Assembly (NCBI GenBank): GCA_012729115.1 | Contig: JAAYDR010000033.1 | Coordinates: 1-45,829, forward strand | Source of the DNA: Clostridiales bacterium | GTDB lineage: Bacteria; Bacillota; Clostridia; Christensenellales; Aristaeellaceae | Direction of reading: 5' to 3' | DNA length: 45,829 nucleotides | Part shown: positions 11,126 through 43,308 of the stretch, piece by piece | How positions within the stretch are numbered: the first letter of the stretch is position 1 | Layout: every line of letters begins with the position of its first letter | Made by a program: the position numbers and the translations under genes | The notes under the pieces: generated by a model | What the model saw: only the letters and a program-made list of their open reading frames with translations | The model's database searches: none | What the model was told of the DNA's origin: nothing

Positions 11126-11842
11126 TTAGCCTTTCGCATCCACCCCCAGCACCACGGGGGTACTGCGGTACCCGATGCCCATGCGATCGATGCCCATGTC
11201 GATGAGTTCCAGAAAATGCTCCCGGGTGCGGATGCCCCCCGAGCCTTTGATCTTGCAGCGGCCCCGGGCAGCGTCCATCATCACCCGGATGACCTGGGGG
11301 GTAGCCCCGTCGCCTTTTCCGCCGGTGAAGAAACCGGTGGAGGTTTTTACAAAGTCGGCTCCTGCAAGGCAGGCAACGTCGGTGGCTTTGGCCACCTCAT
11401 CCAGGGTGAGAGCGTCGGTCTCAAAGATGACCTTCAGCAGTGCGCCGTACCGGTGGGCAACATCGGCCACTGCGCGGATGTCCTGTCCCACTTCATCCCA
11501 CATTCCACTGCGGATCCACCCATAATTGGCAACAATGTCCAGGTCCTCGATGTCCCCAGGGCGGCAGATTTCCTCTGCCTGTTGTACCTTGGAGACTGTC
11601 TGGGACAGGCCGAAGGGAAAATCACAAACCACGCAAAGGCCGGTCTTTGTATCCTTGCACAGCGGACGGGCCAGGGGAAGGGAAGAAGGGTTGATACAGA
11701 CTGTTTTACAGCCGAAGTCAATGCCTTCCTGAACGTACTTGCGAATTTCGTTTTGCGTAAATTCGGGTTTGAGAACGGATTGATCGATATAAGCCGCGAG
11801 TTCCTGTACCGTCATTTCGGATGCCTTCTTGGTGGGTTTCAT
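11126..11842 (-). CDS. deoC: Deoxyribose-phosphate aldolase
   Basis: This 238-residue class I aldolase cleaves 2-deoxyribose 5-phosphate to glyceraldehyde 3-phosphate and acetaldehyde, in deoxynucleoside breakdown. The Schiff-base lysine lies in ADFVKTSTGF (near residue 163) and the second conserved lysine in KIKGSGGIRT (near 197). LKVIFETDAL carries the conserved Glu/Asp region. The N-terminus (IDQSVLKPEFTQNEI) fits the family, although the usual D-H-T after the first Asp reads D-Q-S here. Start ATG 11842 has AAGGAGG 8 bases upstream. It appears to be a single-gene unit, divergent from the ROK/oxidoreductase operon. Confidence 0.94.
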   Translation of the reverse strand: MKPTKKASEMTVQELAAYIDQSVLKPEFTQNEIRKYVQEGIDFGCKTVCINPSSLPLARPLCKDTKTGLCVVCDFPFGLSQTVSKVQQAEEICRPGDIEDLDIVANYGWIRSGMWDEVGQDIRAVADVAHRYGALLKVIFETDALTLDEVAKATDVACLAGADFVKTSTGFFTGGKGDGATPQVIRVMMDAARGRCKIKGSGGIRTREHFLELIDMGIDRMGIGYRSTPVVLGVDAKG

Positions 11843-11952: not shown

Positions 11953-11981
11953 TTGACTTTGAAAGATGATGACGGTAATAT
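11953..11981 (+). promoter_or_regulatory. Sigma-A promoter of the ROK/oxidoreductase/TIM-barrel operon
   Basis: TTGACT (11953-11958), a 17-base spacer and TAATAT (11976-11981) lie 31 bases from the deoC -35 box, so the two promoters are divergent. The leader of about 85 bases holds a 5-bp hairpin, CCCGG/CCGGG, at 11999-12013. Confidence 0.7.
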
Positions 11982-12072
11982 GTACTATAGACAGATCGCC
12001 CGGCGATACCGGGACGAGATAGCCAACAATGGGAAGAAAAGTATCCATCTTGTATGACGAGGAGCCTCTTGT

Positions 12073-13023
12073 ATGCGATATTATCTGGGGATTGATCTGG
12101 GTGGCACCAACATTGTGGCGGGCGTGATGGACGAAGGGTATCAGTTGGTGAGCAAGGGCCACCGCCCAACAAACCTGAAGCGGAGCGCGCCGGAGATCAT
12201 AGCGGACATGGCGGTAGCCGCCAGGGAGGCCCTCTCCCTGGCAGGGCTTACGGAGGGGGATGTGTCCTACGTGGGCATCGGCGTGCCCAGTACTGTACAT
12301 CCTGAAACACGCAGGGTGATCTTTGCCAATAACCTGGGCTGGAAGGACCTGGACGTGATCAGCGAGTTCCAGAAAAGCTGGGATATCCCTGTTTTTATTG
12401 GTAATGACGCCGACTGTGCAGCCCTTGGGGAGTGCCTGGCTGGAGCAGGGCAGGAGTATGATTCCATTTTGATGCTGACTCTGGGCACCGGTGTGGGCGG
12501 CGGCATTGTACTCAACAAGAAACTGTTTCTGGGCGGCAACGGCTTTGGCATTGAGCCGGGGCATACGCTGTTGGTGCAGGACGGTTTTTTGTGCACCTGC
12601 GGTCAAAGAGGCTGTCTGGAGGCCTATGCCTCGGTAACGGCTTTGATCCGCCAGAGCATCGATATGATGATGGTGTATCCCGGGAGTCTGATGTGGGAGG
12701 AATGCGGCGGGGATCTGAATCGGGTGGAGGGCCGCACGGCCTTTACCGCCGCCAGACGGGGGGATATGGCTGCAAAACAGGTGGTGGATCAATACGTCCA
12801 TCATCTGGCAGCCGGAATCGCCAGCATGGTAACCTTCCTGCGGCCCCAGGCGGTTATCATCGGAGGAGGGGTCAGCAATGCCGGGGAGTTTTTGCTGGAA
12901 CCCCTCAGGCAGCAGACATACCCGGCCATTTATGCCAATGATCTCATCGAGCCACCGCCCATTCTCCAGGCACGGCTTGGGAATGATGCCGGTGTCATCG
13001 GCGCGGCTCTTCTGGGTCTGTAA
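12073..13023 (+). CDS. ROK-family sugar kinase (glucokinase-like)
   Basis: This 316-residue cytoplasmic kinase has the phosphate-binding DLGGTNIVAGV at residues 7-17 and catalytic Asp in IGNDADCAALGE near 112-120. TLGTGVGGGIVLN follows, and the ROK zinc motif CTCGQRGCLEAY is at 174-185. The segment before the zinc motif reads GIEPGHTLL rather than the usual G-E-x-G-H, a modest divergence. There is no N-terminal winged helix, so it is a kinase and not a ROK repressor. It heads the operon with two oxidoreductases and three TIM-barrel proteins, so it probably phosphorylates the hexose or hexose analogue they handle or release. AGGAG lies 8 bases before the ATG. Confidence 0.88.
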   Translation: MRYYLGIDLGGTNIVAGVMDEGYQLVSKGHRPTNLKRSAPEIIADMAVAAREALSLAGLTEGDVSYVGIGVPSTVHPETRRVIFANNLGWKDLDVISEFQKSWDIPVFIGNDADCAALGECLAGAGQEYDSILMLTLGTGVGGGIVLNKKLFLGGNGFGIEPGHTLLVQDGFLCTCGQRGCLEAYASVTALIRQSIDMMMVYPGSLMWEECGGDLNRVEGRTAFTAARRGDMAAKQVVDQYVHHLAAGIASMVTFLRPQAVIIGGGVSNAGEFLLEPLRQQTYPAIYANDLIEPPPILQARLGNDAGVIGAALLGL

Positions 13024-13056
13024 ACGGTAGCCAATCATATCGAAAGGAGCGTCCCC

Positions 13057-14172
13057 ATGCTGAATGAACAGGAACTGATTAGGAGCCTTGAACAGGCTAC
13101 GCTGCCCCAACTGCCCCGCAAGATGGATTACGCCATCGGTTGCGTGGGTGCGGGCTTTATCATGGCAGATTGCCAATTGAAGGCTTACCGGGATATCGGC
13201 CTTAACCCCATCGGTATCACCTCCCTGAGCATGGAGAAAAGCCGGGAGGTGGCCAAACGCTATGACCTCCCCAAGGTGTATCCCGGCTGGAAGGAGCTGC
13301 TGGAGGACGAACAGGTGGAAATCCTGGACATTGCCGTGCCTCCGGACGTGCAGCTGGACATTGTCCGCTATGCGGTCAGGCAGAAGCACATCAAGGGTAT
13401 ACTCTGTCAAAAGCCCGTGGCCATGTCGCTGGAGGGCGCCCGGGAAATTGCCCGTTTGGGAGAGGAAGCTGGAATCCCCATCGCCATCAACAGCAACATG
13501 CGCTATGACCAGAGCATGCGGGCTTTAAAACGCGCGCTGGATTTGGACGTGCTGGGGGAGCCGGTATTGGCTACCATTGAGATGCGGGCCATTCCCCATT
13601 GGCAGGAGTTTTTAAAGCAGTATCCTGTGCTTGAGATTTACAGCATGGGCATCCATCATGTGGACATATTCCGTTACCTGTTCGGAGATCCGGCCAAGAT
13701 CACAGCCGTATGCCGAACGGACCCGCGCACGAAGTTCGCGCACAGGGACGGCATTGTACAGTTTACTTATCAATATGACAATGACTTGATGGCCACGAGC
13801 CTGGACGACGTGTGGGCTTGGCCGGAAGCACCTGCTGAAAAGGACATCTACATCAAATGGCGCGTGGAGGGTACCAAGGGGATGGCCACGGGCACCATTG
13901 GCTGGCCCCTTTATCCCAAGCATGAGCCCAGCACCCTGCGGCTCACCAGCAGAGACTATCCGGGCGGTTGGATCCAGCCGCAATGGACAACTGCCTGGTT
14001 CCCCGACGCCTTCCAGGGAACCATGACCAGCCTGCTCAGGGCTGTAGAGAACAGCGAAATGCCGGAGATCTCCGCCCAGGACAACATCCGCACCATTGCT
14101 TGCGTGGAGGCCTGTTATGCTTCCATCCGGGAGGAGCGCACCGTTCGCCTGGAGGAAATTCTGGAAAGATAG
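13057..14172 (+). CDS. Gfo/Idh/MocA-family NAD(P)-dependent oxidoreductase (first of two)
   Basis: This 371-residue protein starts with about 25 extra residues before the Rossmann strand IGCVGAGFIMADCQL. The family E-K-P motif reads CQKPVAM, with Gln replacing Glu but the catalytic Lys retained. The second conserved element, YSMGIHHVDIFRYLFG, supplies a conserved His/Asp pair. The family oxidises a sugar, inositol or sugar-derivative hydroxyl with a tightly bound or exchanging nicotinamide cofactor. The substrate cannot be read from sequence. It lies 33 bases after the ROK kinase with its own ribosome site (GAAAGGAG). Pairing with a second Gfo/Idh/MocA protein and TIM-barrel proteins suggests oxidation at C3 of a sugar ring followed by isomerisation or elimination (inference). 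Confidence 0.85.
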   Translation: MLNEQELIRSLEQATLPQLPRKMDYAIGCVGAGFIMADCQLKAYRDIGLNPIGITSLSMEKSREVAKRYDLPKVYPGWKELLEDEQVEILDIAVPPDVQLDIVRYAVRQKHIKGILCQKPVAMSLEGAREIARLGEEAGIPIAINSNMRYDQSMRALKRALDLDVLGEPVLATIEMRAIPHWQEFLKQYPVLEIYSMGIHHVDIFRYLFGDPAKITAVCRTDPRTKFAHRDGIVQFTYQYDNDLMATSLDDVWAWPEAPAEKDIYIKWRVEGTKGMATGTIGWPLYPKHEPSTLRLTSRDYPGGWIQPQWTTAWFPDAFQGTMTSLLRAVENSEMPEISAQDNIRTIACVEACYASIREERTVRLEEILER

Positions 14173-14244
14173 GCATCTTCCGGTTTGCTTCGTCACTTTG
14201 GCAGGAGAAATGAACCCGATAAAAAGAGAAAGGGGAATCATCAT

Positions 14245-15390
14245 ATGTCCAGGAAATTTCGAACAGGTATCGTCGGAGTCGGTTTTATCGGAGCTGTCCA
14301 TATTGAGCAGCTGCGCCGGTTGGGGAATGTGGAGGTGGTGGCCCTGACGGACAGCGTGGACGCGCAAAAAAAGGCGGATGCGCTGCATGTACCCAAGGGA
14401 TATGCGGACTATCGCCAAATGATCGATCAGGAAAACTTGGACTGTGTCCATGTATGCACACCCAACAGCACCCACTTTGAGATTGCCATGTACGCCCTGG
14501 ATAAAGGCGTCAACGTGCTGTGTGAAAAGCCCCTGGCCACCACCCCTGAGGAGGCGGAGGCTCTGCTGGCCCGTGCCAGGGAGAAAAAGCTGATCCACGC
14601 CATGAACCTCAACTGCCGCTTCTATCCCATTGCATACCAGATGCGGGAGATGGTTCGCAGCGGAGAAGTGGGTGACATCTTCACCATCCATGGCGGGTAT
14701 CATCAGGACTGGCTGTTTTATGACACGGATTACAACTGGCGGCTGGAGCCCGCACTGTCGGGCGACTCCCGGGCCTTTGCGGACATTGGCTCCCACTGGA
14801 TTGACCTGGTGGAGTTTATCACAGGGTTGCATGTGGTGGAGGTCATGGCAGACTTTGAGACCTTCCACAAGACCCGCAAAAAACCCCTGAAAGCTGTGGA
14901 CACCTATTCCGGCATGAAACTGAGGCCCGAGGATTATCAGGAGGTTCCCATCCAAACCGAGGACTACGCTGCCGTGCTGTTCCATTTTGACAATGGGGCC
15001 CACTGCTGCTGCCACATCACCCAGGTCTTTGCCGGGCGCAAGAACCAGATGGTTCTCTCCATCGCGGGAAGTAAAAACTCTCTGCACTGGGACAGTGAAG
15101 CTTCCAACGAGGTCTGGATTGGGCGGCGGGATCGGGACAACGGACAGCTGGTCAAGGATCCCTCCATTTTAATGCCCAAAACCGCTGGTGTGGTCAGTTA
15201 TCCCGGCGGCCACGTGGAGGGCTTTGCCGATACCTTCAAGCAGAATTTCAAGCAGATCTACAAAGCCATCGAGTTGGGCGATGCCACAAGCCTTGATTTT
15301 GCAAACTTTGCAGACGGTCTCCGGGAAATGAGGCTGTGCGAGAAGATCGTGCAAAGCGCTAAGGAACGCCGCTGGGTGAGCGTGGAATAG
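14245..15390 (+). CDS. Gfo/Idh/MocA-family NAD(P)-dependent oxidoreductase (second of two)
   Basis: This 381-residue protein has the Rossmann motif GIVGVGFIGAVH at residues 8-19 and the canonical catalytic motif NVLCEKPLAT near 93-102. DIGSHWIDLVEF near 192-203 carries the conserved His and Asp. It is clearly distinct in sequence from the preceding oxidoreductase, so the pair is not a recent duplication. It may catalyse the reverse redox step, or act on the product of its partner. ATG 14245 is chosen because AGAAAGGGG lies 9 bases upstream and the Rossmann fold starts right after. The longer frame from 14185 has no homologous sequence. Confidence 0.86.
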   Translation: MSRKFRTGIVGVGFIGAVHIEQLRRLGNVEVVALTDSVDAQKKADALHVPKGYADYRQMIDQENLDCVHVCTPNSTHFEIAMYALDKGVNVLCEKPLATTPEEAEALLARAREKKLIHAMNLNCRFYPIAYQMREMVRSGEVGDIFTIHGGYHQDWLFYDTDYNWRLEPALSGDSRAFADIGSHWIDLVEFITGLHVVEVMADFETFHKTRKKPLKAVDTYSGMKLRPEDYQEVPIQTEDYAAVLFHFDNGAHCCCHITQVFAGRKNQMVLSIAGSKNSLHWDSEASNEVWIGRRDRDNGQLVKDPSILMPKTAGVVSYPGGHVEGFADTFKQNFKQIYKAIELGDATSLDFANFADGLREMRLCEKIVQSAKERRWVSVE

Positions 15391-15424
15391 GCGCTTGCTG
15401 ATTCCTGGCAGAAAGAGGATGCAG

Positions 15425-16309
15425 ATGTTGAAGATCGGTACATTGGCGGATTGGTTTGGCCTGGGCCCTCTGGAAGGGATCCGGGCGTCCCGGCGCTGCG
15501 GGGCGCAGGGAGTGCAGCTTTATGCCTGGAACGAATTGAACCCCATGACCATCAGCGACAGTATGGTTCAGCAGCTGCGCGCTACCACTAAAGAACAGGA
15601 ACAGGAGATCACCGCCCTGTGCGGTGAACTGGGCGAGATTGCCCCTGGGGGGCAAGGCCTGGAGATTGCTGCCGAAAACCCGCCCAAGGTGGAGTATTTA
15701 AAGCGGGTCATGGATCTGGCCGCGCAACTGGATTGCCGTGTGGTCACCAGCCATATCGGGATCATCCCCCAGGAGGAGAATGGCGAACGCTACGAGGCGA
15801 TGCTAAGCAGCTGCCGGGAGCTGGGCGAATACGCGGCCAGGCAGAACTGTTGGTTTGCCATTGAGACTGGACCTGAACCCATCACCAGGCTCAGCCGGTT
15901 TGTAGATGCCTGCGGAGGCCGGGTGGCCATCAACTATGATCCCGCCAACCTGGTGATGGTGACTGCGGACGATGAGGTGCAGGGAGTTTTGCACGCCGGC
16001 AAACGGATTGTCCACACCCATGCCAAGGATGGGGTGCTTAAGCAGTACGTTGGACCTGAAAAGGTATACCGCGCTTTTGCCCAGGGAGGCATCGAAGCGC
16101 TCCAGGATATGCCCAGGTATTTCTCAGAAACCCCGCTGGGAAAGGGAGCAGTGCGCTGGGTGCCCTATGTGCAGGCGCTGATGGACGTGGGATACGACGG
16201 GTATCTGACCATCGAGCGGGAAGTCAGCAAAGACGCGGCTTCCGATATTATCCAGGCTGTTCTTTTCTTGAAGGAAATTATAGAAAAAGTAAGACAGGGG
16301 AAGGAGTAG
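15425..16309 (+). CDS. TIM-barrel sugar isomerase/epimerase-like protein (AP-endonuclease-2 fold), first of three
   Basis: This 294-residue protein belongs to the xylose-isomerase-like TIM-barrel superfamily. Likely divalent-metal ligands sit at the expected strand ends: Glu in FAIETGPEP, Asp in INYDPANLVM, His in IVHTHAKDG and Glu in YLTIERE. Relatives include sugar 3-epimerases, inosose dehydratases and hydroxypyruvate isomerases, so the exact reaction is open. ATG 15425 is chosen because AGAAAGAGG ends 6 bases upstream. ATG 15419 would abut that site. It is the fourth gene of the operon, 34 bases after the second oxidoreductase. Confidence 0.82.
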   Translation: MLKIGTLADWFGLGPLEGIRASRRCGAQGVQLYAWNELNPMTISDSMVQQLRATTKEQEQEITALCGELGEIAPGGQGLEIAAENPPKVEYLKRVMDLAAQLDCRVVTSHIGIIPQEENGERYEAMLSSCRELGEYAARQNCWFAIETGPEPITRLSRFVDACGGRVAINYDPANLVMVTADDEVQGVLHAGKRIVHTHAKDGVLKQYVGPEKVYRAFAQGGIEALQDMPRYFSETPLGKGAVRWVPYVQALMDVGYDGYLTIEREVSKDAASDIIQAVLFLKEIIEKVRQGKE

Positions 16310-16315
16310 GAGCCA

Positions 16316-17230
16316 ATGATGAAACTGGGACTTGTTTCAGCAATTTTGCCTGACTTTACCTTTGAACAGGTGATCGACTATGCCGCCAGCGTGGGGTTTT
16401 CTTGCGTGGAGGTTTGTTGCTGGCCCAAGGGGAAGGCAGCCCGCCGCTATGCCGGGATTACCCACATCGACGTGGACGGCCTCACGAGGGAGCGAATGGA
16501 TGCCTACCTTCAGTATGCCAAAGAGAGGGGCGTAGCCATCAGCTCCCTGGGGTACTATCCCAACCCGATGGATGCCGATCCCGAAACCCGCAGAGTAGCT
16601 GCCGAGCATCTGTCCGCGCTGATTGACGTGTCCGCCGAGATGGGCGTGAACATGGTCACTACCTTCATCGGCAAGGACAAGCGCAAGACGGTGGAGGAAA
16701 ACCTGGAACTGTACGAGGAGATTTGGACACCCATCATCCGTCATGCGGAAGAGAAAAAGGTACGCATCGGCATTGAGAACTGCCCGATGTACTACACCAA
16801 GGACGAGTTCCCAGGCGGCAACAATCTGGCCTCCACCCCCTACATCTGGAAGGAGATGTTCCGCCGCATCCCTTCGGATTATCTGGGCCTGAACTTCGAT
16901 CCATCCCACCCTTATCTGCTGATGTCGGATTATATCCAGCCGTTGTACGATTTCAAGGACAAGATCTTCCATGTCCACTTCAAGGATATTAAAATCTACC
17001 GGGACAAGCTCAATGAATACGGAGCATTCTCCTATCCCTCCCTGTGGCACTCGCCTAAACTTCCAGGTCTGGGAGGCGTGGATTTTGCTGCCTTCTGTTC
17101 CGCCCTCAACGACATCCGCTACAACGGGTACGCCTGCATCGAGGTGGAAGATCGGGCCTTTGAGAGCTCCATTGAAGATGTGAAAAAGGGCATCGAGCAG
17201 AGCTACCGGTATATGCGGCAATTCATGTAA
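16316..17230 (+). CDS. TIM-barrel sugar isomerase/epimerase-like protein, second of three
   Basis: This 304-residue xylose-isomerase-like TIM barrel has putative metal ligands Glu in IGIENCPMYY, Asp in LNFDPSHPYL, His in IFHVHFKDIK and Glu in ACIEVED. The PGGNNLASTPYIWKEMF segment after the first ligand, and the DPSH motif, mark a subgroup distinct from the first barrel protein. I associate this pattern with sugar isomerase/epimerases found beside Gfo/Idh/MocA proteins in glycoside- and inositol-handling clusters, but no reaction can be assigned from sequence. The gap to the previous gene is only 6 bases, which implies coupled translation. Start ATG 16316 or the adjacent ATG 16319. Confidence 0.83.
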   Translation: MMKLGLVSAILPDFTFEQVIDYAASVGFSCVEVCCWPKGKAARRYAGITHIDVDGLTRERMDAYLQYAKERGVAISSLGYYPNPMDADPETRRVAAEHLSALIDVSAEMGVNMVTTFIGKDKRKTVEENLELYEEIWTPIIRHAEEKKVRIGIENCPMYYTKDEFPGGNNLASTPYIWKEMFRRIPSDYLGLNFDPSHPYLLMSDYIQPLYDFKDKIFHVHFKDIKIYRDKLNEYGAFSYPSLWHSPKLPGLGGVDFAAFCSALNDIRYNGYACIEVEDRAFESSIEDVKKGIEQSYRYMRQFM

Positions 17231-17263
17231 GGATCTGTTCATGGAAATGTGAGGAGGCATTGT

Positions 17264-18166
17264 ATGCTCAGTGTGGGAATATTTACCGGGTATTACCCCT
17301 ATGAAGTGGACGAGGTGATCCGCCGCATCAAGGCCAGCGATTTCAACTGTGTCCAGTTGGACGTTTCCTTCAAGGACTGCGATGCCGCCAAGGGCCAGCT
17401 GACGAAGGAGAAGGCCATCGAAATCCGCAGCAAGCTGCGGGATGCAAACCTGCCTGTGGTGTGCGTGTCTGCCTACACCAACTTCATCCATCCCGACCCC
17501 CAGAAACGGCGCAGGAACATCGAATACCTGAAAAGCATGATTCGCTTTGCAAGGGATCTGGGCTGCACCTATGTTGCCAGCGAAACCGGCACCTACAATG
17601 AGGAAAGCGACTGGGTCTGGGATGATCGCAACGGCACGGAGGCCGTCTATCAGGAAACCCTCCAGGTCGTTAAGGAGATTGTGGCCTGTGCGGAAGATAA
17701 CGGCGTTACCTTCCTGATTGAAAACTATGTCAACAATGTGATCGGCTCAGTGGCTCAGGTGAAGCGCTTGTTTGAGGATGCGAACTCATCCGCTTTGGGC
17801 TTGCTCTGCGATCCCACAAACTACTTTGACGAAACCAACATTGATCATGTGGACGAAACCCTCCGCCTGATCTTTGACGAACTGGCGCCCTTTATGAAAG
17901 TAGCTCATGCCAAGGACTGCAAGCGTACCACCGATTACTCGGAGAAGCACGCCGATATTGATGCGGATGAGTCTCACACCTTCCGGGGTGCGGGCGGCGT
18001 TGAGTTGCCCGCCTGCGGTCTGGGGGTGCTCAACTATCCGCTGTACGTGGAACTTCTGGCAAAGCATCACCCCAACATGCCCATCATCATCGAGCATTTG
18101 GATGAGTCTGATATTCCAAGGGCCAAGGGGTTCCTGGACGGGGTGCTGAAGAAAGTGGGAGTGTAA
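17264..18166 (+). CDS. TIM-barrel sugar isomerase/epimerase-like protein, third of three
   Basis: This 300-residue member of the same superfamily has likely metal ligands Glu in FLIENYVNN, Asp in LLCDPTNYFD, His in VAHAKDCK and Glu in IIIEHLDESD. The C-K-R-T insert and a longer loop before HTFRGAGGVELP distinguish it from its two neighbours. Three non-identical barrels in one operon suggest successive steps, such as epimerisation, elimination and isomerisation, not redundancy (inference). ATG 17264 is chosen because GAGGAGG lies 6 bases upstream. An in-frame GTG at 17249 precedes that ribosome site and is rejected. It is the last gene before a hairpin terminator. Confidence 0.82.
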   Translation: MLSVGIFTGYYPYEVDEVIRRIKASDFNCVQLDVSFKDCDAAKGQLTKEKAIEIRSKLRDANLPVVCVSAYTNFIHPDPQKRRRNIEYLKSMIRFARDLGCTYVASETGTYNEESDWVWDDRNGTEAVYQETLQVVKEIVACAEDNGVTFLIENYVNNVIGSVAQVKRLFEDANSSALGLLCDPTNYFDETNIDHVDETLRLIFDELAPFMKVAHAKDCKRTTDYSEKHADIDADESHTFRGAGGVELPACGLGVLNYPLYVELLAKHHPNMPIIIEHLDESDIPRAKGFLDGVLKKVGV

Positions 18167-18181
18167 CCTGAAGACGCATAG

Positions 18182-18215
18182 CGGCCCTGCTTCGTGAAAG
18201 CAGGGCCGTATATTA
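18182..18215 (+). terminator. Terminator of the ROK/oxidoreductase operon
   Basis: An 11-bp perfect stem (18182-18192 with 18198-18208) and a 5-base loop are followed by the AT-rich TATATTAT and not a pure T tract. It lies between convergent genes. Orientation favours the plus-strand operon. Confidence 0.7.
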
Positions 18216-18237: not shown

Positions 18238-19128
18238 TTATCTTGTCTTTAATGCTGCCAAAACCTCTTCGTAGCCGGGAATGGAGGGAGCAGCGCCGGG
18301 GCGGGTCACCGCGATGGAGGCCGCCATGGATGCAGTGCGCAGCGCCTGGGGAATCGATTCTCCCCGGGCGATGGAAGCCAGGTAGTACCCGGTAAAGGTA
18401 TCTCCTGCCGCCGTGGTATCCACAGGCTCCACAGGGAAGATCGGTTGGTGGTACATCTCTCCTCCATCCAGGCAGATGGAGCCTTCTGCGCCTAAAGTAA
18501 GCACAATCTGCGCCTCGGGGTATTTTTGTCCTAGCGTGGCAAGAATGTTCCGGGGTTCCTGTTTGCCGGTGAGCTCATATCCTTCCACTTCATTGAGAAT
18601 CCACAGGTCCACCAGTTCCCCGGGGAGATCCCTCAATGTGCTGCTGATGGGGGAAGGGTTGAGGGCCACCTGCATGCCTTTTGTTTTGGCTGCGCGGATG
18701 ATATAAGGAAGATCATTGACCTCATTTTGAAGCAGCAGCAGATCCCCCCGGGAGAAGGGGGCCAGCATTCGGTCCAGTTCTTCCCGGGTGTTTTCCTGAT
18801 TGGCTCCGCCATGGATGATGATGCAGTTTTGCCCGGCCGGGTCCACCTGGATCACGGCTGTACCGGTAGCAGTACCGTTTTGAGCCAGGTGCGTGGTGTC
18901 CACGCAGGCCTCCCGCAGCAATTCCACCAGAAACTGGCCGTCCGGGCCTACCTTCCCACCGTGATAGACATTTGCCTTGGCCCGTCCCAGTGCCACGGAC
19001 TGATTCAGGCCCTTGCCTCCCGCGAAGCGCCGCAGGGAGGTGGAGGCGATGGTTTCGCCGGTACGGACAAAATGCTCGACGGAGTAGACCAGATCAATGT
19101 TCAGAGAACCATAATTGAGGATCTTCAC
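18238..19128 (-). CDS. rbsK: PfkB-family ribokinase
   Basis: This 296-residue kinase has the ribokinase N-terminal pattern YGSLNIDLVYSV, then RRFAGGKGLNQSVAL (sugar-binding GGKG-x-N) and the C-terminal signature PVDTTAAGDTFTGYY, with catalytic Asp in AAGDTF. It probably phosphorylates ribose or a similar pentose at O5, feeding the pentose phosphate pathway. It starts with GTG (19126-19128); AGGAG lies about 11 bases upstream. It sits 47 bases after wbpE on the same strand, so it may be read from the wbp transcript, although the pathway link is not evident. deoC lies nearby but on a separate transcript. Another sugar, such as deoxyribose, is possible. Confidence 0.88.
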   Translation of the reverse strand: MKILNYGSLNIDLVYSVEHFVRTGETIASTSLRRFAGGKGLNQSVALGRAKANVYHGGKVGPDGQFLVELLREACVDTTHLAQNGTATGTAVIQVDPAGQNCIIIHGGANQENTREELDRMLAPFSRGDLLLLQNEVNDLPYIIRAAKTKGMQVALNPSPISSTLRDLPGELVDLWILNEVEGYELTGKQEPRNILATLGQKYPEAQIVLTLGAEGSICLDGGEMYHQPIFPVEPVDTTAAGDTFTGYYLASIARGESIPQALRTASMAASIAVTRPGAAPSIPGYEEVLAALKTR

Positions 19129-19175: not shown

Positions 19176-20312
19176 TTATTTCATAAAAAATGCCTTGATC
19201 CCTTGGACCACCTTGCGTATCTCATCCTCCGTCAAGTAGGGATGCATGGGCAAGGACAACACCTTTTGCGTCACATCCAGGGTGTGGGGGAATAAGCGGT
19301 CCTCAAAGCCGATGCATGCATAAGCCGCCTGCTGATGAATCCCCCGAGGGTAATAGACCATGGTGGGGATCCCCTGTTCCTTCAAATGCTTGCGTAGTTC
19401 TTCCCGCTCCTGGGAGTCTTTCAGCTGAATGCTGTATTGTGCCCAGGAGCAGCGGTGCCCCTCCGGCACATAGGGGGTTACCAACACTCCGGTCAGCTCC
19501 CTGGTATATGCCTCTGCCACACGGTTTAGGGCATCCAGCTCGTAGCGGGTGAAGGCCTCCAGTTTGGGCAGGAGGATGGCGGCCTGGAGGGTGTCCAAGC
19601 GGGAGTTCATGCCGATTAAGCGGTTGTCGTACTTGTCCTCCGGGGAACGGCCTTGGGCCCTAAGAGACCGGAGCAGGAGATCCTCTTCCTTGCTGTCGGT
19701 GAAAACCGCGCCCCCATCCCCATAGCACCCCAGGGGTTTGGGGGGGAAGAAGGAGGTAGTGGCAGCCCGGCCAAAGGAGCAGGCGCGCCTTTCCCCGATG
19801 CTGCCTCCAAAGCCCTGGGCAGCGTCCTCCAGTACGAGGAGGCCGTGCTTTTGTGCAATGGCTTCAATTTGGGGATAGTCGGCGGGCAGTCCAAAGAGAT
19901 CCACAGCGATGATTACCCGGGGTCTTAGCTTGCCTTCCCGTTGAACTCGCAGGATGGCCTCCTCCAGAGCATCCGGAGAGATATTGAAGGTTCGTGGGTT
20001 GATGTCCACGGGGATTGCTGCAGCACCAAGCACCGATGCACTGCCCGCCGAGGCGAAATAGGTGAAATCAGAGGTAAATACCGCATCCCCAGCCCCGATC
20101 CCCCAAGCCATCAGTACCAACGTCAGCGCGTCCGTTCCATTGGCACAGGAAATGCAGTGTTTGCGACCCGCAAAGGCCGCAAGTTTGTCTTCCAGGTCAG
20201 CCACTTGTTCTCCCAGTATGAAATGCCCTTTGGCAATCACATCGGCGATCGCCGCGTCGATTTCCTTTTGCAGCGCCCTGTACTGGGCCCCCAGATCATG
20301 AAATTCCATCAT
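19176..20312 (-). CDS. wbpE: DegT/DnrJ/EryC1-family aminotransferase, WbpE-like
   Basis: This 378-residue PLP enzyme has SCANGTDALTLVL near residues 54-66 (phosphate-binding G-T-D-A), EDAAQGFG (cofactor Asp) and the PLP lysine in FFPPKPLGCYGDGGA near residue 191. LGMN-type RLDTLQAAILLPKL follows. WbpE-type enzymes aminate UDP-3-keto-GlcNAcA at C3 using glutamate. The assignment rests on the adjacent WbpA-, WbpB- and WbpD-like genes as much as on sequence, because DegT-family enzymes share these motifs. Its ATG overlaps the wbpD stop (ATGA at 20309-20312), and a second ATG follows directly. AAGGAAG lies upstream. It is the last biosynthetic gene of the set. Confidence 0.87.
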   Translation of the reverse strand: MMEFHDLGAQYRALQKEIDAAIADVIAKGHFILGEQVADLEDKLAAFAGRKHCISCANGTDALTLVLMAWGIGAGDAVFTSDFTYFASAGSASVLGAAAIPVDINPRTFNISPDALEEAILRVQREGKLRPRVIIAVDLFGLPADYPQIEAIAQKHGLLVLEDAAQGFGGSIGERRACSFGRAATTSFFPPKPLGCYGDGGAVFTDSKEEDLLLRSLRAQGRSPEDKYDNRLIGMNSRLDTLQAAILLPKLEAFTRYELDALNRVAEAYTRELTGVLVTPYVPEGHRCSWAQYSIQLKDSQEREELRKHLKEQGIPTMVYYPRGIHQQAAYACIGFEDRLFPHTLDVTQKVLSLPMHPYLTEDEIRKVVQGIKAFFMK

Positions 20313-20869
20313 TCCACTTCCTTCAGCCCGTTTCCGCTGGATTCAAAAGTGCGGCCACAGGCATCACAAATCATGCCATGGAGCCGCTCCCCGCATGTAC
20401 AGACAAAGCCCGACGGTCGTGCGGGGATGCCAAGCATCAGCACATGGTCGGGCACAGAGACAGTCACCAATGCGCCTGCGCCGATCATGGCATTGCGCCC
20501 GATGGTGTTGCCGCAGACGATGGTGGCGTTGGCTCCAATCGTAGCCCCATCCAGCACACGGGTGGGCACGAAATTCTCTCGCCCTTTGGGGTACTTGGCT
20601 CTGGGGGTCAGGTCGTTGGTGAACACGCAGGAGGGGCCGCAAAACACGTCGTTCCCCAGGCTGACTCCCTCATAAATGCTTACGTTATTCTGCAATTTGC
20701 ACCCGTCCCCGACAGTCACATGGCTTCCAATATACACGTTTTGACCCAGGCGGCAGTTTCGGCCCAGGATGGAGTCCTGTTGGATGTGGCAGAAATGCCA
20801 GATCTGGGTGCCATCTCCAATCTGCACGTTCTCATCCACATAGGAGCTGGGGTGGATAAACACGCTCAC
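20309..20869 (-). CDS. wbpD: Left-handed beta-helix N-acetyltransferase, WbpD-like
   Basis: This 186-residue trimeric hexapeptide-repeat acyltransferase begins VFIHPSSYVDENVQIGDGTQIWHFCHI and continues through repeated I/V-G-x-x-x-x units (residues about 5-150). The H-F-C-H-I segment and FTNDLTPRAK contain residues usual in WbpD/WlbB enzymes, which acetylate the C3 amine of UDP-GlcNAc3NA to give UDP-2,3-diacetamido-2,3-dideoxy-glucuronate. The C-terminus carries CTCGERLHGMICDACG, a four-cysteine zinc-ribbon-like knuckle. GTG 20869 is chosen because it overlaps the wbpB stop as GTGA, and GGGAGG lies 8 bases upstream. The longer ATG frame would overlap wbpB by 40 bases. Confidence 0.88.
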   Translation of the reverse strand: MSVFIHPSSYVDENVQIGDGTQIWHFCHIQQDSILGRNCRLGQNVYIGSHVTVGDGCKLQNNVSIYEGVSLGNDVFCGPSCVFTNDLTPRAKYPKGRENFVPTRVLDGATIGANATIVCGNTIGRNAMIGAGALVTVSVPDHVLMLGIPARPSGFVCTCGERLHGMICDACGRTFESSGNGLKEVE

Positions 20870-21966
20870 CGCCCAAACCTCCCTTGAAAGTCCGTGGTGG
20901 CGCAATCGGAAAGGGGCAGGTTCACAGGCTGGCCCCGTTGGGCGGATAGATAGATGGCAAGCACCAGTTCGACAGCACGCAGCCCGGACTCACCGTCGAT
21001 ATAAGGGAGGCGGTTCTGAAGGATGGCCTGGGCCATGTCCGCATACAGGGGTGTATGCCCAAAGCCATAGACGTTGGGTGGGTCCTCCTTGAACTCCATA
21101 ATAATGGTGGCCGGGTCTCCCCTGCCATCCCGGAAATCCCATTCTTCAATCCTGTTGACGCTCTTGCCACCGGCCTTGACAGTGCCGTTCTCCCCAAATA
21201 TGTACAAGGTTTCCTCCAGGTTGTGGGGGAAAATGTTGGTGGTTCCCTCGATGAGGCCATAGGCTCCGCCAGCAAACTTCACCAAAGCCAAGCCCAGGTC
21301 TTCGGCCTGGATGTAGGGATGTTCCAGGTTGTCCGTATAAGCCATGACCTGGGTGACTTCGTCTCCCATCATCCAGCGCAGCAGGTCGATGTTATGGATG
21401 CACTGATTCATCAGCGCACCGCCGTCCTGTGCCCAGGTTCCCCGCCAGGGTGCCTGGGCATAGTATTCCTTGCCCCGACTCCACCGGATATGGGCGGCCC
21501 CGTGAAGCATCCGGCCAAAGCGGTTTTCCTCCACAGCAGTGCGGATCTTTTGAATGGATTTGTTGAAGCGGTTCTGGTGACAGGCGCACAGTTTGACTCC
21601 CTTTTCACGGGCAGCGGCAATCAGGGCCCGTCCATCTGCCATGCACAGGGCCAGGGGCTTTTCGATAATCACATGACAGCCTGCCGCGATGCAATCCAAA
21701 CCGATAGCCGCATGCTTGCCGCTCTCAGTGGCGACGGCCACCAGATCGGGTTTTACCTGGGAAAGCATCTGCGCGTAATCCTCATAGCGGAGCACCAAGG
21801 CGCGCTGCGCTGGGGGAACATGGGAAAGAACATCCTCCATCCTTCCAGGAATCAGGTCACACACAGCGGTAAGCTCGAGCGTGTCCGCGTTTTTCAGGAC
21901 GGCCGCAATGTGGTTGGACGCAATCCGTCCGCAGCCAATCAACGCATACCGAAGCTTATGCTCCAT
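20866..21966 (-). CDS. wbpB: Gfo/Idh/MocA-family UDP-GlcNAcA 3-dehydrogenase, WbpB-like
   Basis: This 366-residue oxidoreductase has the Rossmann motif ALIGCGRIASNHI at residues 7-19 and the catalytic VIIEKPLAL near 97-105. HQNRFNKSIQKIR and GGALMNQCIHNIDLLRWMMG (conserved His/Asp) are typical of WbpB/WlbA. In that pathway it oxidises C3 of UDP-GlcNAc uronate with NAD, often recycling cofactor through 2-oxoglutarate. The call is supported by position directly after wbpA and overlapping wbpD. ATG 21966 has AAAGGAG 7 bases upstream; the longer frame adds 17 residues without family similarity. Confidence 0.88.
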   Translation of the reverse strand: MEHKLRYALIGCGRIASNHIAAVLKNADTLELTAVCDLIPGRMEDVLSHVPPAQRALVLRYEDYAQMLSQVKPDLVAVATESGKHAAIGLDCIAAGCHVIIEKPLALCMADGRALIAAAREKGVKLCACHQNRFNKSIQKIRTAVEENRFGRMLHGAAHIRWSRGKEYYAQAPWRGTWAQDGGALMNQCIHNIDLLRWMMGDEVTQVMAYTDNLEHPYIQAEDLGLALVKFAGGAYGLIEGTTNIFPHNLEETLYIFGENGTVKAGGKSVNRIEEWDFRDGRGDPATIIMEFKEDPPNVYGFGHTPLYADMAQAILQNRLPYIDGESGLRAVELVLAIYLSAQRGQPVNLPLSDCATTDFQGRFGR

Positions 21967-21985
21967 GGGAAGGCTCCTTTCGCGC

Positions 21986-23293
21986 TTAGAGCAATCGGAT
22001 ATTCTGTCGATGCTCAACGCTCTTCATGGCGTTCTTGGTGTCCAGGACCAGGGGCGCGTGCAGCGCCACCAGGTTGTAATCTACGGTGGTATGAGCAGTG
22101 GTTACCATGACCAGGTCAACCCCCTCTACAACATCGGCAGTGAGGGCGGGAATGCTGCGGTACATCTTGCCATTCCAGGGGAATTCCGAGACGTAGGGGT
22201 CATAGAAGCTGACCTCTGCGCCCAGGGCTTCCAGGGCTTCCATCACACGGATGGCCGGGCTCTCCCGGAAATCGTCAATGTCCTGCTTGTAGGCTATGCC
22301 CAGCATCAGTACTTTAGCTCCGTTAATGGCCTTCCGCTGTTCATTCAGAGCCCGCATGGCCCGCTGGGCGCAATACTCAGGCATCCGGTCGTTGATAATC
22401 ATGCTGCTCTCAATCATGGATGTGTGGAAACCAAACTCCCGGGCCTTCCAGCTCAGGTAATAGGGGTCCAGGGGGATGCAGTGGCCGCCCAGGCCGGGGC
22501 CGGGGTAAAAGGCCTGGAAGCCGTAAGGCTTGGTCTTGGCGGCGTCGATGACCTCCCAGATGTTGATGCCCATTCGGTCGCAGAGGATCGCCAGCTCATT
22601 GATGAGGCCAATGTTTACGTTCCGGTAGGTGTTTTCCAGGATCTTTTCCATCTCTGCAATGGCGGGAGAGCTGACCCGGTGCACCGGAGCCTCCAGCACC
22701 GCTTCGTACAGAGTGGCGGCGATGTCCGTGCATTGGGGGGTGATTCCACCCACTACTTTGGGGGTGTTTTTGGTTTTATAGATGGCATTGCCCGGGTCAA
22801 CCCGCTCCGGTGAAAAGGCCAGAAAAAAATCCTCCCCGCAGACAAGGCCGGATTGCTCCAGGATCGGCTTGATGAGTTCCTCCGTTGTGCCTGGGTAAGT
22901 GGTGGACTCCAGCACCACCAGCATGTCCTTGTGCAGATGGGGCATGATGCTTTCCGTGGAGGCACGGACATAGCTGATGTCGGGCTGCTGGTGTTCGTCC
23001 AGAGGGGTAGGCACGGCAATACATACACAGTCGCAGGAGGCTACGGAAGCAAAATCCGTGGTGGCCGTCAGATAGCCGCTTTTCACCACGCTCGCCAAAT
23101 CCGCATTGACTACGTCGCCAATGTAATTATGCCCTTGGTTGACCAATTCAACCTTCTGGGATTGGACATCAAAACCGATTACATGAAAACCTGCCTTGGC
23201 TTTTTCCACAGCCAGGGGCAGACCCACGTATCCCAATCCCACAACGCCCAGCGTGACAGCCCTTTCCTTAATCCTTTGTTTCAACGTAGACAT
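21986..23293 (-). CDS. wbpA: UDP-N-acetylglucosamine 6-dehydrogenase, WbpA-like
   Basis: This 435-residue UDP-sugar dehydrogenase has the NAD motif GVVGLGYVGLPLAVEKAKAG (residues 14-33) and VCIAVPTPLDEHQQPD. ESTTYPGTTEEL and FSPERVDPGN follow, and the catalytic Cys lies in LGGHCIPLDPYYL near residue 268. The sequence groups with WbpA/TviB-type enzymes, which oxidise C6 of UDP-GlcNAc to the uronic acid in two NAD-dependent steps; oxidation of UDP-ManNAc or UDP-GalNAc cannot be excluded. ATG 23293 is preferred because AAAAGGAG lies 8 bases upstream. The open frame running 71 codons further covers the promoter region. It is the first gene of the wbp set. Confidence 0.92.
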   Translation of the reverse strand: MSTLKQRIKERAVTLGVVGLGYVGLPLAVEKAKAGFHVIGFDVQSQKVELVNQGHNYIGDVVNADLASVVKSGYLTATTDFASVASCDCVCIAVPTPLDEHQQPDISYVRASTESIMPHLHKDMLVVLESTTYPGTTEELIKPILEQSGLVCGEDFFLAFSPERVDPGNAIYKTKNTPKVVGGITPQCTDIAATLYEAVLEAPVHRVSSPAIAEMEKILENTYRNVNIGLINELAILCDRMGINIWEVIDAAKTKPYGFQAFYPGPGLGGHCIPLDPYYLSWKAREFGFHTSMIESSMIINDRMPEYCAQRAMRALNEQRKAINGAKVLMLGIAYKQDIDDFRESPAIRVMEALEALGAEVSFYDPYVSEFPWNGKMYRSIPALTADVVEGVDLVMVTTAHTTVDYNLVALHAPLVLDTKNAMKSVEHRQNIRLL

Positions 23294-23371
23294 AATTTCG
23301 ACTCCTTTTAAATGGGATTCCGCTGGGCAAAAGAGGGGAAGCAAGCGGAATCGTGGCATTTCGACCTGTGT

Positions 23372-23401
23372 ATCATACTCCATTTGGGAAGGAAATGTCA
23401 A
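23372..23401 (-). promoter_or_regulatory. Sigma-A promoter of the wbp operon
   Basis: On the minus strand TTGACA (23401-23396), an 18-base spacer and TATGAT (23377-23372) precede wbpA by about 80 bases. Confidence 0.75.
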
Positions 23402-26586: not shown

Positions 26587-29500
26587 TTACCCCATTGGTT
26601 CCGTTACCCGAATGGGAAATGTCGCCTCATGAATTCGCCCGTCATCCACCAGCAGGAGCCTTCCCTCCTTGAGTTGCTGCCCGTCTGCCATGGGGAAAGG
26701 GCATTCCTTGGTAGCATGCAAGTGATAGGTGGCACTGCCGTAGCGGTAGGTTAGCGTGAGGCTGTCCCAGCCCTCGGGCAGGCAGGGACGCAGCCGCAGG
26801 GAATTGCCAATTTTTTGGAATCCGAAAAGCTGCTCCAGCACTGTGTAATAAAGCCAGGAAGCGCTGCCGGTGTACCAGGTCCAACCGCCCCGGCCTCGTT
26901 GCTGAGGATGGCTGTAGATATCCGCTGCCATCACGTAAGGCTCTACCCGATAGCGGTTGGCTTGCTGTCGGGTAAGGGCGTGGTTGATGGGCAGGCAGGC
27001 CAGGACCAACTCCCAGGCCTGGGCGTCGTTGCCCAGCTGGTGCATGGCCGCTACGGCCCAAGGCACTACATGGGTGTATTGGCCGCCGTTTTCCCGGATG
27101 CCGGGCAGGTATCCGGCGATGTAACCCGGTTGTTCCAATCCGTTGAACGGTGGTGTAAACAGCTTCAAAATGCCGATGTCCCGCTCATAGAGCATCCGCC
27201 ACACATGGTCCATAGCCAGGGCGCTGCGTTCCCTGGATACGCCGCACAGCACAGCCCAGCACTGGGGCAGGGCATCGATGCGGCATTCGCTGCTTGCGCA
27301 GCCGCCCAGAACCTCGCCGTCGTCATACCAGGCCCGCAGGTACCAGGATCCGTCCCAGGCATGCTGGTCAATCATCTGCAATACCTTGTGTCTCCGCTGA
27401 GACAGGGTTTTGGCGGATTCCTTGTCCACATAGGGCAGCATACGGCGGATTACCTCACAGTAGAACATGCCCAACCACACGCTTTCGCCGTTCTCACCCC
27501 CCACGGCGTTCATACCGTCGTTCCAGTCCCCGCCACCCATTAATGGCAGGCCGTGAGGGCCAAAGCCAACATGCTCGATGGCCTTCAGACAATGTTGCAG
27601 CAGGGGTTCGGCCAGTTCTGATACATCGGGTTCGCCCATGCTTTCATGCTGGTTTTCCTTGAGGGGTTCTCCCTTCAGATAGGGCACGGGAACCTGCAGG
27701 ATGCCTCCGTCTCCTGTAACTTGCACATACAATGCCGTCACAAAGGGCAGAAACAGCAGATCGTCGGAAATCCGGGTGCGCACCCCATGGCGGGGAGGAT
27801 GCCACCAGTGCTGCACATCTCCTTCCTCAAACTGGTGGGCTGCGCAGAGCAGCAGATGCCCACGTACGGTCTGGGGATCGGTGTAAAGCAAGGAGAGCAT
27901 ATCCTGAAGCTGATCCCGGAAACCATAGGCACCTCCGGCCTGGTAGAAGCCTGCCCTGGAGAAGAGCCGGGCGGCCCGTACCTGGTATGGCAGCCAACGG
28001 TTAAGCATCAGAGAAAGGGCCGTTCCGGGAAGGTCAACCTGCAGCCCGCCCAGCTGCTGCTCCCAGAAGAGCTTCACCCGGTGCAGGCGCTGGCTGCCAC
28101 CCTCCGCAGTGAGGACACCCAGGGCTGCATCCACTGTCTCTCTGCTGGGCGCAAAGCCTATGGCGAAGGTAAAGACTTGGGTTTCTCCGGGCCTGAGCAA
28201 AAAGGTGTGACTGAGAACCCCCACGTTGCCCATATCCGAAGGCAAAGCGTCCGAGGAGCTCAGCGCCAGGGGGGCGATGCCCACCAACCCCTGGAAAGCA
28301 CCGGAGGACATGGTGGTGGAAAGGGTGGGGGCAGGATCCGTCATGGCCATACAGGCCACGCCCTGGGACACTGGGTTTTGCGCGTAGATTACCCCGTTGT
28401 CCCTGTAGGTGGCGGTGAGCTGCTCCTCTGAGGGGTGGTTGCTCATGGCAAAGATACAGGTGTAAAAAAGCTGCAGGGGGCGTTCCACTACGTCATCGTT
28501 TTTCAAATGCAGCACCCGGATGCCCAGGGGCAGCTCCTCATCGCTAAAGCAGACCAGCTTCTGAGCGATGCCGTAGCCGTGGCTTTCGTAGGTGGTGAAG
28601 CCAGGGGAGTGGGTGATCTGGCAATGCTGGTTCTGTCCCAGAGGCCAGCGAGTCACGGACCACAGCAGACGGTTGGATTTGTCCTTGAGGAAGAAGTTTT
28701 CCTCTCCATAGGAGGAGACACTGTCATTGGGCCAGCGGGTCAGCCGGGTTTTGTGGCTGTTGTGTGCGTAGGTGAATACCAACCCGCTTTCCGCAGCCAG
28801 GCTGCCGAAGGTGGAGGAAGCCAGTACATTGCTCCAGGGACCGGGGGTGTTCTTGCCGGGTGGGAGGATGATCACATAATCCCCCAGGTCCCGTGAGAAC
28901 CCGCCGTAGCCGTTGTCAAACAGCAGCTCTTCCGCATCGGGTGGAAACTGCTTCCAGGCTCCGGATGGCTTGGGGTCCTCCAGACTCTGAGGCTTGACGC
29001 TGGTAAGAAGCGCTTTGAGCTGGTCCAGGATGCCACCCTTGCTGGTACGGAGCACCAGACGGGCACAGCTGACCAGCAGGGTAAAAATCTCCGTGGAGAG
29101 GCTTTGTCTCTCCAACAGGTGCAGGCCTCCATCCTTGCCGATCAGTTCCCGGCTGTGGCTGGATTGGATCAGATCGCTTAGCATATCCCGCAGAGGATGC
29201 GCATAACCAGCCGCTTGGTCGCTGAGGACGATCAAATCAAACCATAGCCCCTTCATGCGATAATAGGCGTGCGCTTTGAGCAGCTGCCGTATCAGGCTCA
29301 AATCCTGGGCGTCTTCGCAAATCGCCAGCAGAATGGGCAGATCGCCGCTGACACTCAGTCCCCACAATTCCCTGAGTGGCAAAGCCCCGGGATGAACCCC
29401 CACGGACTGATGTGGCTGGCCGGTGTAACATAGGCTGCCGCACAACCGGGAGATGGTGTTGTGCAGGGTTGCGTCCAACCCTAGATAACGGGCGGACACC

Positions 29501-43290: not shown

Positions 43291-43308
43291 GACGTGGGGG
43301 ACAAAGCC

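Follow-up and report, generated by a model that had tools for sequence, protein, structure and literature searches.

A six-gene operon of a Clostridiales bacterium and its probable place among 3-keto-sugar pathways

The window analysed here, 45,829 nucleotides long, is the whole of contig JAAYDR010000033.1 (C8 in our numbering) of the Clostridiales bacterium assembly GCA_012729115.1, a genome of 3.15 Mb in 124 contigs. It carries six plus-strand genes at 12073-18166 that encode a ROK kinase, two Gfo/Idh/MocA oxidoreductases (GFO1 and GFO2) and three xylose-isomerase-like barrel proteins (B1, B2 and B3). On balance, we favour the reading that they form an operon for keto-hexose conversion, in which a sugar would be oxidised, rearranged, reduced and phosphorylated. 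Homology indicates that GFO2, B2 and the ROK kinase are most likely the end of such a route, leading from 3-keto-glucose to glucose-6-phosphate. On this reading the operon is a new variation on known 3-keto-sugar pathways and not a new category. Homology and gene context support the identities of the genes, their conserved linkage, the LgdC type of GFO2, the hydratase lineage of B2 and the absence of an eliminase histidine from the barrels.

Gene organisation

Gene calls and Pfam searches agreed with the initial annotation of this DNA, which had described six co-directional, tightly spaced genes. The spacers between them measure 33, 72, 28, 6 and 33 nt, leaving no room for a glycoside hydrolase or a transporter, both of which that annotation had described as missing. 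Pfam assigned ROK to one gene, GFO_IDH_MocA to two and AP_endonuc_2 to three, all above the curated cut-offs. The six genes are:

12073-13023, plus strand: ROK sugar kinase, glucokinase-like (PF00480, 233.6 bits)
13057-14172, plus strand: GFO1, Gfo/Idh/MocA dehydrogenase with a fixed Q-K-P motif (Pfam; nearest solved structure 5uhw)
14245-15390, plus strand: GFO2, Gfo/Idh/MocA enzyme of the LgdC type (glucose 3-dehydrogenase / 3-keto-glucose reductase; identity to LgdC, tree)
15419-16309, plus strand: B1, xylose-isomerase-like barrel with the putative metal set E149/D174/H201/E266 (Pfam, alignment)
16316-17230, plus strand: B2, barrel of the 2-hydroxy-3-keto-glucal hydratase lineage (profile matches to 8ro4 and LgdB2)
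17264-18166, plus strand: B3, barrel and near-constant partner of GFO1, with the putative metal set E153/D183/H215/E277 (clustering)

Conservation of the gene set

A profile built from two GFO1 sequences was scanned against 84,980 species, one genome each, and gave 53 loci. The locus counts below use the 52 GFO1 loci that stood after gene calling, namely 51 of those 53 and L045. Codon-usage gene calls were visibly faulty at L021, L047, L049, L094 and L107, the last two of which lie outside the 52. Where no model is cited, names of neighbours such as CUT2, ABC-2, RbsA, activase and ManA follow sequence resemblance or BLAST to our own clusters.

All six genes recur together within 6.5-7.1 kb in four other species, three Lachnospiraceae (L065, L068 and L070) and one of the Oscillospiraceae (L105), with B2 truncated by the contig end in L068. 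There the genes lie in two divergent arms, B2-B1-GFO2 and deoC-GFO1-B3-ROK, deoC being a gene that in the window lies upstream of the operon on the opposite strand. A Treponema locus (L062) holds GFO1-B3-GFO2-B2 and deoC inside 6.1 kb, and in L022 the order is B2-GFO2-deoC-ROK. Retention of all six in four other genomes shows that the unit exceeds chance, while the changed order of genes that are still linked indicates that the linkage survived rearrangement and that deoC is part of the group. The initial annotation would have been undermined by a lack of conserved co-occurrence, which was not what we found, and its expectation that each protein is distinct was borne out, as every one of them forms its own orthologue group. 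No counterpart of the whole six-gene block was found in the open-access literature searched.

Close to the source organism the components are unevenly distributed. At the E-values used, GFO1 and B3 occur in the organism's own genome only among 60 (its own and 59 relatives), and GFO1 in 2 of 391 class genomes, its own included. Counted in the same way, B2 orthologues are present in 8 of the 60 and in 6 of 321 class genomes, and relatives of B1 in 13 of the 60.

The reductase, hydratase-lineage barrel and kinase

GFO2 is an enzyme of the LgdC type on the strength of its sequence relationships. It is 42% identical over its full length to the LgdC-type gene of a levoglucosan cluster in genome G707, a cluster whose LgdA scored 758.5 bits against a curated cut-off of 650. 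The remaining members of that cluster were assigned by size and arrangement after PMC7676230 and PMC10066097 (all articles cited by PMC number are drawn on in excerpt), which give LgdB1 as about 275 aa, LgdB2 as about 325 aa and LgdC as 43 kDa. In a tree of 34 rows, GFO2 and LgdC formed one clade (100/100) apart from that of LgdA (99/95). The E-K-P motif of GFO2 was present in 8 of 8 alignment rows, or in seven genes once the duplicate locus L015/L022 is counted a single time. In B. smithii, LgdC converts 3-keto-glucose to glucose by reduction (excerpts of PMC7676230). Contig C72 of the organism's own genome (535-3693, L134) encodes a further LgdC-like enzyme, which scored 260 bits against LgdC and falls inside the GFO2-LgdC clade. 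It lies beside two more barrels, and these three genes may be another 3-keto-sugar module.

The ROK kinase is, by sequence, glucokinase-like. Its best PDB match is the glucokinase 3vgk (E = 4e-52), and it scored 238.6 bits against ROK_glcA_fam (TIGR00744), slightly under the cut-off of 260.35. The earlier suggestion that a ROK kinase would capture a released hexose accords with this.

Among characterised enzymes, B2 is nearest in sequence to the 2-hydroxy-3-keto-glucal hydratase lineage. Its profile matched 2zds (1.5e-21), MJ1311 (3.9e-12) and 8ro4 (1e-10) in the PDB, the last being a 2-hydroxy-3-keto-glucal hydratase by its PDB title alone, and scored 96.7 bits against LgdB2. A B2 orthologue adjoins a GFO2/LgdC-type gene in L022, L062, L126, L158 and L159, and in L130 and L157 it adjoins a Gfo gene close to CGDB/DgpC-like genes. 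An Enterococcus raffinosus plasmid carries, in this order, Gfo, a barrel with E-I-H, a CGDB subunit (119.7 bits, cut-off 27.6), Gfo, B2 and ROK, and in the class genome G301 a CGDB gene lies 7.2 kb from B2, CGDB being present in 3 of the 321 class genomes. In these two clusters B2 is an obvious candidate for the hydratase that would act after elimination.

The barrels lack the eliminase histidine

The proposed base of the known eliminases is a histidine two residues past the metal ligand on strand beta-5, as in H132-x-H134 of AtOGE and E147-x-H149 of CGE, and the H134A replacement abolished AtOGE activity (excerpts of PMC8563793 and PMC10628242). This beta-5 site reads HPH in LgdB1, EMH in LgdB2 and EIH in the barrels of a Klebsiella plasmid and of E. 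raffinosus. Orthologues of B1 have ETG in 17 of 17 sequences; those of B2 have ENC in 16 of 17 rows and EGC once (14 distinct genes, as L010/L017, L013/L020 and L016/L023 are the same loci counted twice); and those of B3 have ENY in 46 of 48 and ETY in 2. In this alignment the histidine is thus present in none of the B1, B2 or B3 sequences, nor was the HxH of LgdB1 found in the operon barrels, although the E/D/H/E metal set is retained in all three groups. YcjR, a 3-keto-glucoside 4-epimerase, likewise lacks the histidine and has EPL at this site. The search of the organism's own genome for the CGDB beta subunit (PF19906) gave a best score of 12.3 bits (E = 0.31), below the cut-off of 27.6.

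The absence of the histidine casts doubt on elimination inside the operon. Chemistry of the epimerase, tautomerase or hydratase kind is a better fit, and by sequence the three barrels resemble such enzymes more than the eliminases known so far, an argument that depends on a single alignment position among divergent barrels. Of the oxidise-and-eliminate pathway initially proposed, the 3-keto-sugar chemistry and the terminal hexose kinase are upheld by GFO2 with LgdC, B2 with 8ro4 and the ROK kinase, while elimination by the barrels is not, and its DgpB/C-type form finds no DgpB-type subunit above the cut-off in the genome. The distinct metal-site contexts noted for the three barrels are real, as the ETG, ENC and ENY sites illustrate.

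The GFO1-B3 pair

B3 lies next to GFO1 in 47 of the 52 loci by clustering, or 48 with L079, where it was seen on the gene listing. Of the other four, L072 stops just after GFO1, and L106, L108 and L111 show no B3. The pair ranges over Treponema, Clostridia, Paenibacillus, Bacteroidia, Chloroflexi and Rhizobiaceae, and profile searches found no close characterised relative for it. The best solved match of GFO1 is 5uhw (2.8e-33 by profile), on whose substrate nothing useful was found in the open-access literature. The Q-K-P motif of GFO1, initially noted as standing in place of E-K-P, is indeed there, but it is fixed in 54 of 54 family sequences (the window's own included) and aligns with Q-K-P in 5uhw. 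The AlphaFold2 model of B3 (mean predicted local distance difference test score, pLDDT, 88.8) resembles 5tnv, 2zds, UlaE, 3tva and 8ro4, with YcjR at rank 23; as many folds of the superfamily fit about equally, fold likeness does not decide the reaction of B3. For B1, the model (pLDDT 91.9) is closest in fold to 3tva.

The neighbours of the pair differ between lineages. ROK is found in 11 of the 52 loci by cluster, with L063 a twelfth on the gene listing; aldose 1-epimerase in 18, an RbsA-type ABC gene in 11, DeoC in 10, a UroD-like protein in nine and RbsD in two. Genes for a desaturase and a Rieske ferredoxin occur in 19, all of Paenibacillus or Cohnella and all between L073 and L110. One example each of the desaturase/ferredoxin, aldose 1-epimerase and UroD-like neighbours was checked by Pfam. 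The UroD-like example scored 58.3 bits against UroD (cut-off 23.9) and 43.6 against the MtaA/CmuA methyltransferase model, far below 235.4; the count refers to protein cluster C8 alone and leaves out cluster C29, whose example matched nothing in Pfam. No locus combines the desaturase with the UroD-like protein, but as the 19 desaturase loci come from one bacterial family, this exclusion amounts to few independent events. On two Rhizobiaceae plasmids GFO1-B3 is followed by a gene of the aldose 1-epimerase family and an SDR. In L063, L067, L069, L105 and on contig C50 of the organism itself, a NanE-like epimerase and a second glycyl radical enzyme family stand beside GFO1-B3 or its transporter, the C50 enzyme scoring 307.1 bits, below the subfamily cut-off of 678.2. 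The 19 Paenibacillus and Cohnella loci could be an O-demethylation cluster. What we take to be aldo/keto reductase-like and creatininase-like genes are also present at some of them.

A broader reading, which we put forward only tentatively, places GFO1-B3 at the centre of a cross-phylum pathway, as yet undescribed, that acts on a monosaccharide which is rare or O-methylated. This pathway would be built on the histidine-independent formation and rearrangement of a keto-sugar and served by interchangeable modules. These would be a MocDE-type oxygenase pair in Paenibacillus and Cohnella and a UroD/MtaA-like, methyltransferase-type protein in anaerobes. In genomes of the window's type, GFO2-B1-B2-ROK would lead to a hexose phosphate, and DeoC with a glycyl radical enzyme would be a 2-deoxy-sugar branch.

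The divergent deoC gene, the transporter and the flanking signals

Four further features adjoin the six genes:

11126-11842, minus strand: deoC-like gene for a DERA-type class I aldolase, transcribed away from the operon and outside the interval of the initial annotation (TIGR00126)
11953-11981, plus strand: promoter-like site TTGACT-17-TAATAT (consensus match only)
18181-18209, plus strand: terminator-like hairpin between converging genes (consensus match only)
18238-19128, minus strand: ribokinase-like PfkB kinase converging on the operon, a possible accessory with a weak link (TIGR02152)

The deoC product scored 173.8 bits against TIGR00126, above the cut-off of 117.3, and the lysine motifs K-[T/S]-S-T-G and K-[G/A]-S-G were present in 7 of 7 sequences, the window's among them. 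Both are presumably the active-site lysine regions of DERA. The deoC of L022, which lies between GFO2 and ROK, is 67% identical to that of the window. Another DERA-like subfamily (33-36% identical to the window's) directly precedes GFO1 in L065, L068, L070 and L105 and is near it in L062. In the class genomes L056, L057 and L058, orthologues of the window deoC (72-77%) share their loci with genes for a PfkB kinase, an ABC transporter of the ribose type and a glycyl radical enzyme of 801-802 aa, which in L056 scored 766.1 bits against TIGR01774 (cut-off 678.2); an activase-like gene is present in L056 and L058. Each of these clusters looks like a route in which a polyol or sugar is dehydrated to a 2-deoxyaldose that is then passed to the kinase and DERA. 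Nothing relevant to the glycyl-radical/pentitol topic was found in the open-access literature.

The initial annotation overlooked both deoC and the probable transporter locus on C50. This contig bears NanE-, glycyl-radical-enzyme-, activase- and NagB-like genes and an ABC-2-like set. Its ABC transporter (a binding protein, an ATPase and two permeases) is 65-75% identical to that of L071, and its barrel is 79% identical to the L071 barrel; in L071 the barrel and transporter directly precede GFO1-B3-ROK. By these similarities the C50 locus is the probable transporter for the operon. The beta-5 site of the C50 barrel reads Q-N-H by eye and that of a barrel on contig C26, which scored 368 bits against LgdB2, reads E-M-H. 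An eliminase could thus be encoded in this genome, though at a site other than the operon.

The promoter and closing hairpin initially described exist as sites but only as consensus matches, because the region is not clearly richer in either than shuffled DNA. The promoter-like site agrees with the consensus at 9 of 12 positions and is one of eight in the region (4.5 +/- 2.3 in shuffles). The hairpin has 12 pairs, eight of them G-C, the most among 12 terminator-like sites (8.6 +/- 3.0 expected), and a weak T-tail. Since the ribokinase-like gene ends at 18238 on the other strand, the hairpin may serve both genes. That gene scored 215 bits against TIGR02152, below the cut-off of 299.65, and PfkB and DeoC stand together beside GFO1-B3 in 3 of the 52 loci (L084, L086 and L090).

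Elsewhere in the window, the minus strand at 19176-23383 encodes a DegT aminotransferase, a hexapeptide transferase, a Gfo/Idh/MocA protein and a UDP-sugar dehydrogenase, which we take to resemble nucleotide-sugar biosynthesis of the di-N-acetylated uronic acid type. At 26587-34431 the minus strand encodes a protein of 2614 aa that combines GH94 and glucoamylase-like domains, presumably akin to cyclic beta-glucan synthases. A second ROK kinase (43294-44277, plus strand) is 38% identical to that of the operon.

Comparison with known systems

The levoglucosan pathway LgdA-LgdB1-LgdB2-LgdC (excerpts of PMC7676230 and PMC10066097) also combines two Gfo/Idh/MocA enzymes with PF01261 barrels. GFO2 clusters with its LgdC, B2 is distantly akin to LgdB2 and the hydratase, and the ribose-type ABC sugar transporter of the known clusters has its equivalent here on C50. 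Unlike that pathway, the operon has no LgdA (NF052479: GFO1 49.1 and GFO2 160.5 bits, cut-off 650) and lacks an LgdB1-like HxH eliminase; it has three barrels, with ROK and deoC in addition. A levoglucosan operon was therefore rejected, as GFO2 fits LgdC but the features of LgdA and LgdB1 fail.

The DgpA/DgpBC (CGE) and AtOGE/AtHYD systems (PMC8563793 and PMC10628242, in excerpt) share with the operon oxidation at C3, metal-dependent barrels and a back end of hydratase and reductase, and B2 orthologues stand in two such clusters (L130 and L157). The operon barrels lack the catalytic histidine and the genome shows no CGDB subunit above the cut-off, and a C-glycoside operon was rejected on those two counts. 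The E. coli YcjQRS set, annotated as D-guloside 3-dehydrogenase, 3-dehydro-D-guloside 4-epimerase and D-glucoside 3-dehydrogenase, offers an epimerising barrel without the eliminase histidine flanked by two dehydrogenases, that is, a scheme of oxidation, epimerisation and reduction. The operon is compatible with this architecture and type of site, but YcjQ is unmatched by the Gfo profiles, and neither YcjR nor YcjS is orthologous to its proteins (YcjR against B1, B2 and B3: 13.4, 4.3 and 5.2 bits; YcjS against GFO1 and GFO2: 51.8 and 96.9). The Caulobacter lactose/3-ketogalactose genes, as described in excerpts of PMC9007349, differ in their front end of LacABC and a DUF1080 hydrolase. The rhizopine moc genes (PMC10107442, in excerpt) likewise pair a Gfo enzyme with a barrel, and MocD/MocE-like genes lie beside GFO1-B3 in Paenibacillus and Cohnella, but none is found in the operon.

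Proposed pathway and alternatives

We infer the position of oxidation, the direction of each step, the substrate and the roles of B1, B3 and DeoC as follows. NAD-dependent GFO1 would oxidise a ring hydroxyl, most likely at C3, of an imported substrate of monosaccharide size. In B3, and probably B1, a divalent metal bound by the E/D/H/E set would polarise the ketone and allow proton shifts on the neighbouring carbon, resulting in epimerisation or tautomerisation. B2 may hydrate a 2-hydroxy-3-keto-glycal or supply 3-keto-glucose otherwise, and GFO2 would reduce the 3-keto-sugar to a hexose, probably glucose, with the NADH from GFO1, so that the route would be redox-neutral. The ROK kinase would then phosphorylate the hexose, while DeoC probably acts on a by-product open to two-carbon cleavage or serves a parallel branch for 2-deoxy-sugars.

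Several observations weigh against this scheme. GFO2, B1 or B2 lies near GFO1-B3 in just 9 of the 52 loci, and B2 orthologues in L017-L020, L023 and L160 have other Gfo genes or transporters nearby, so that GFO1-B3 and B2 do not depend on each other. The solved relative that outscores 8ro4 for B2, 2zds, has no function in its title, and the E-N-C of B2 in place of the E-M-H of LgdB2 leaves its hydratase function putative. B3 is remote from anything characterised, its best PDB profile match being Art22 (2.9e-7), and LgdB1, LgdB2 and LgdC of L125 were named by size and gene context and not by a curated model. The genome also holds a B1 paralogue on contig C61 (114 bits), and with a further LgdB2-like barrel on C26 and LgdC-like enzyme on C72, the copies in the operon may act on different substrates. 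NanE-, NagB- and ManA-like genes close to certain orthologues could mean that the sugar is an amino sugar and not glucose.

Non-hydrolytic glycoside cleavage within the operon would have GFO1 form a 3-keto-glycoside, B3 or B1 eliminate the aglycone by way of a base other than histidine, and B2, GFO2 and ROK complete the route. Such a pathway needs exactly this back end, B2 does stand in the two C-glycoside clusters, and the C26 or C50 barrel could be the eliminase. It is nevertheless unlikely, given that the histidine whose replacement killed OGE activity is absent from every B1, B2 and B3 sequence, that the genome has no CGDB subunit above the cut-off, and that the RbsA-type ABC genes and mutarotase-type genes (18 and two loci) near GFO1-B3 would fit monosaccharides, with the caveat that a different kind of sugar ABC transporter is found in plasmid locus L114. 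The same mutarotase-type genes, aldose 1-epimerase and RbsD, suggest a sugar with an anomeric carbon and so count against catabolism of a cyclitol or O-methyl-cyclitol (of the pinitol, ononitol or inosamine type), in which GFO1 and B3 would be related to the rhizopine moc enzymes and act on a demethylated cyclitol. The desaturase-family and Rieske ferredoxin genes downstream of B3 in the 19 Paenibacillus and Cohnella loci speak for that idea, as do L116, where a desaturase 54% identical to those precedes a ferredoxin annotated as MocE family, and the involvement of mocC and mocDEF in rhizopine catabolism (PMC10107442, in excerpt). A putative creatininase-like gene in 8 of the 52 loci and a weak similarity to IolG and IolE also favour it. 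Against it, all scores with inositol models lie far under the cut-offs (IolG 76.9 and 113.9, cut-off 355; IolE 22.1 and 48.2, cut-off 290; IolO 42.7 and 23.9, cut-off 300), and the Iol enzymes were rejected as a match, an outcome that also spares the initial annotation its other stated ground for refutation, a grouping with inositol enzymes. With no mocDE-like gene in the operon either, we regard the cyclitol route as improbable. Finally, the genes could be a loose set of paralogues co-regulated for several unrelated sugars. GFO1-B3 does stand alone in many loci and B2-GFO2 in others, and AP_endonuc_2 has 21 matches in the genome, but four further species keep all six in a single divergent block, linked in spite of a changed order, and we give this reading little credence.

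Implications

Barrels of PF01261 are common beside Gfo/Idh/MocA enzymes and are usually annotated just as 'sugar phosphate isomerase/epimerase'. The presence or absence of the histidine two residues past the beta-5 ligand offers a simple first test to sort eliminases from the other barrels in such operons. For the keto-hexose conversion proposed here, sequence relationships allow the end of the pathway to be assigned with some confidence. GFO1-B3 emerges as a stable cross-phylum unit to which some genomes add a back end of characterised type, an LgdC-like reductase and a hydratase-lineage barrel, and this makes the front end directly testable with purified proteins.

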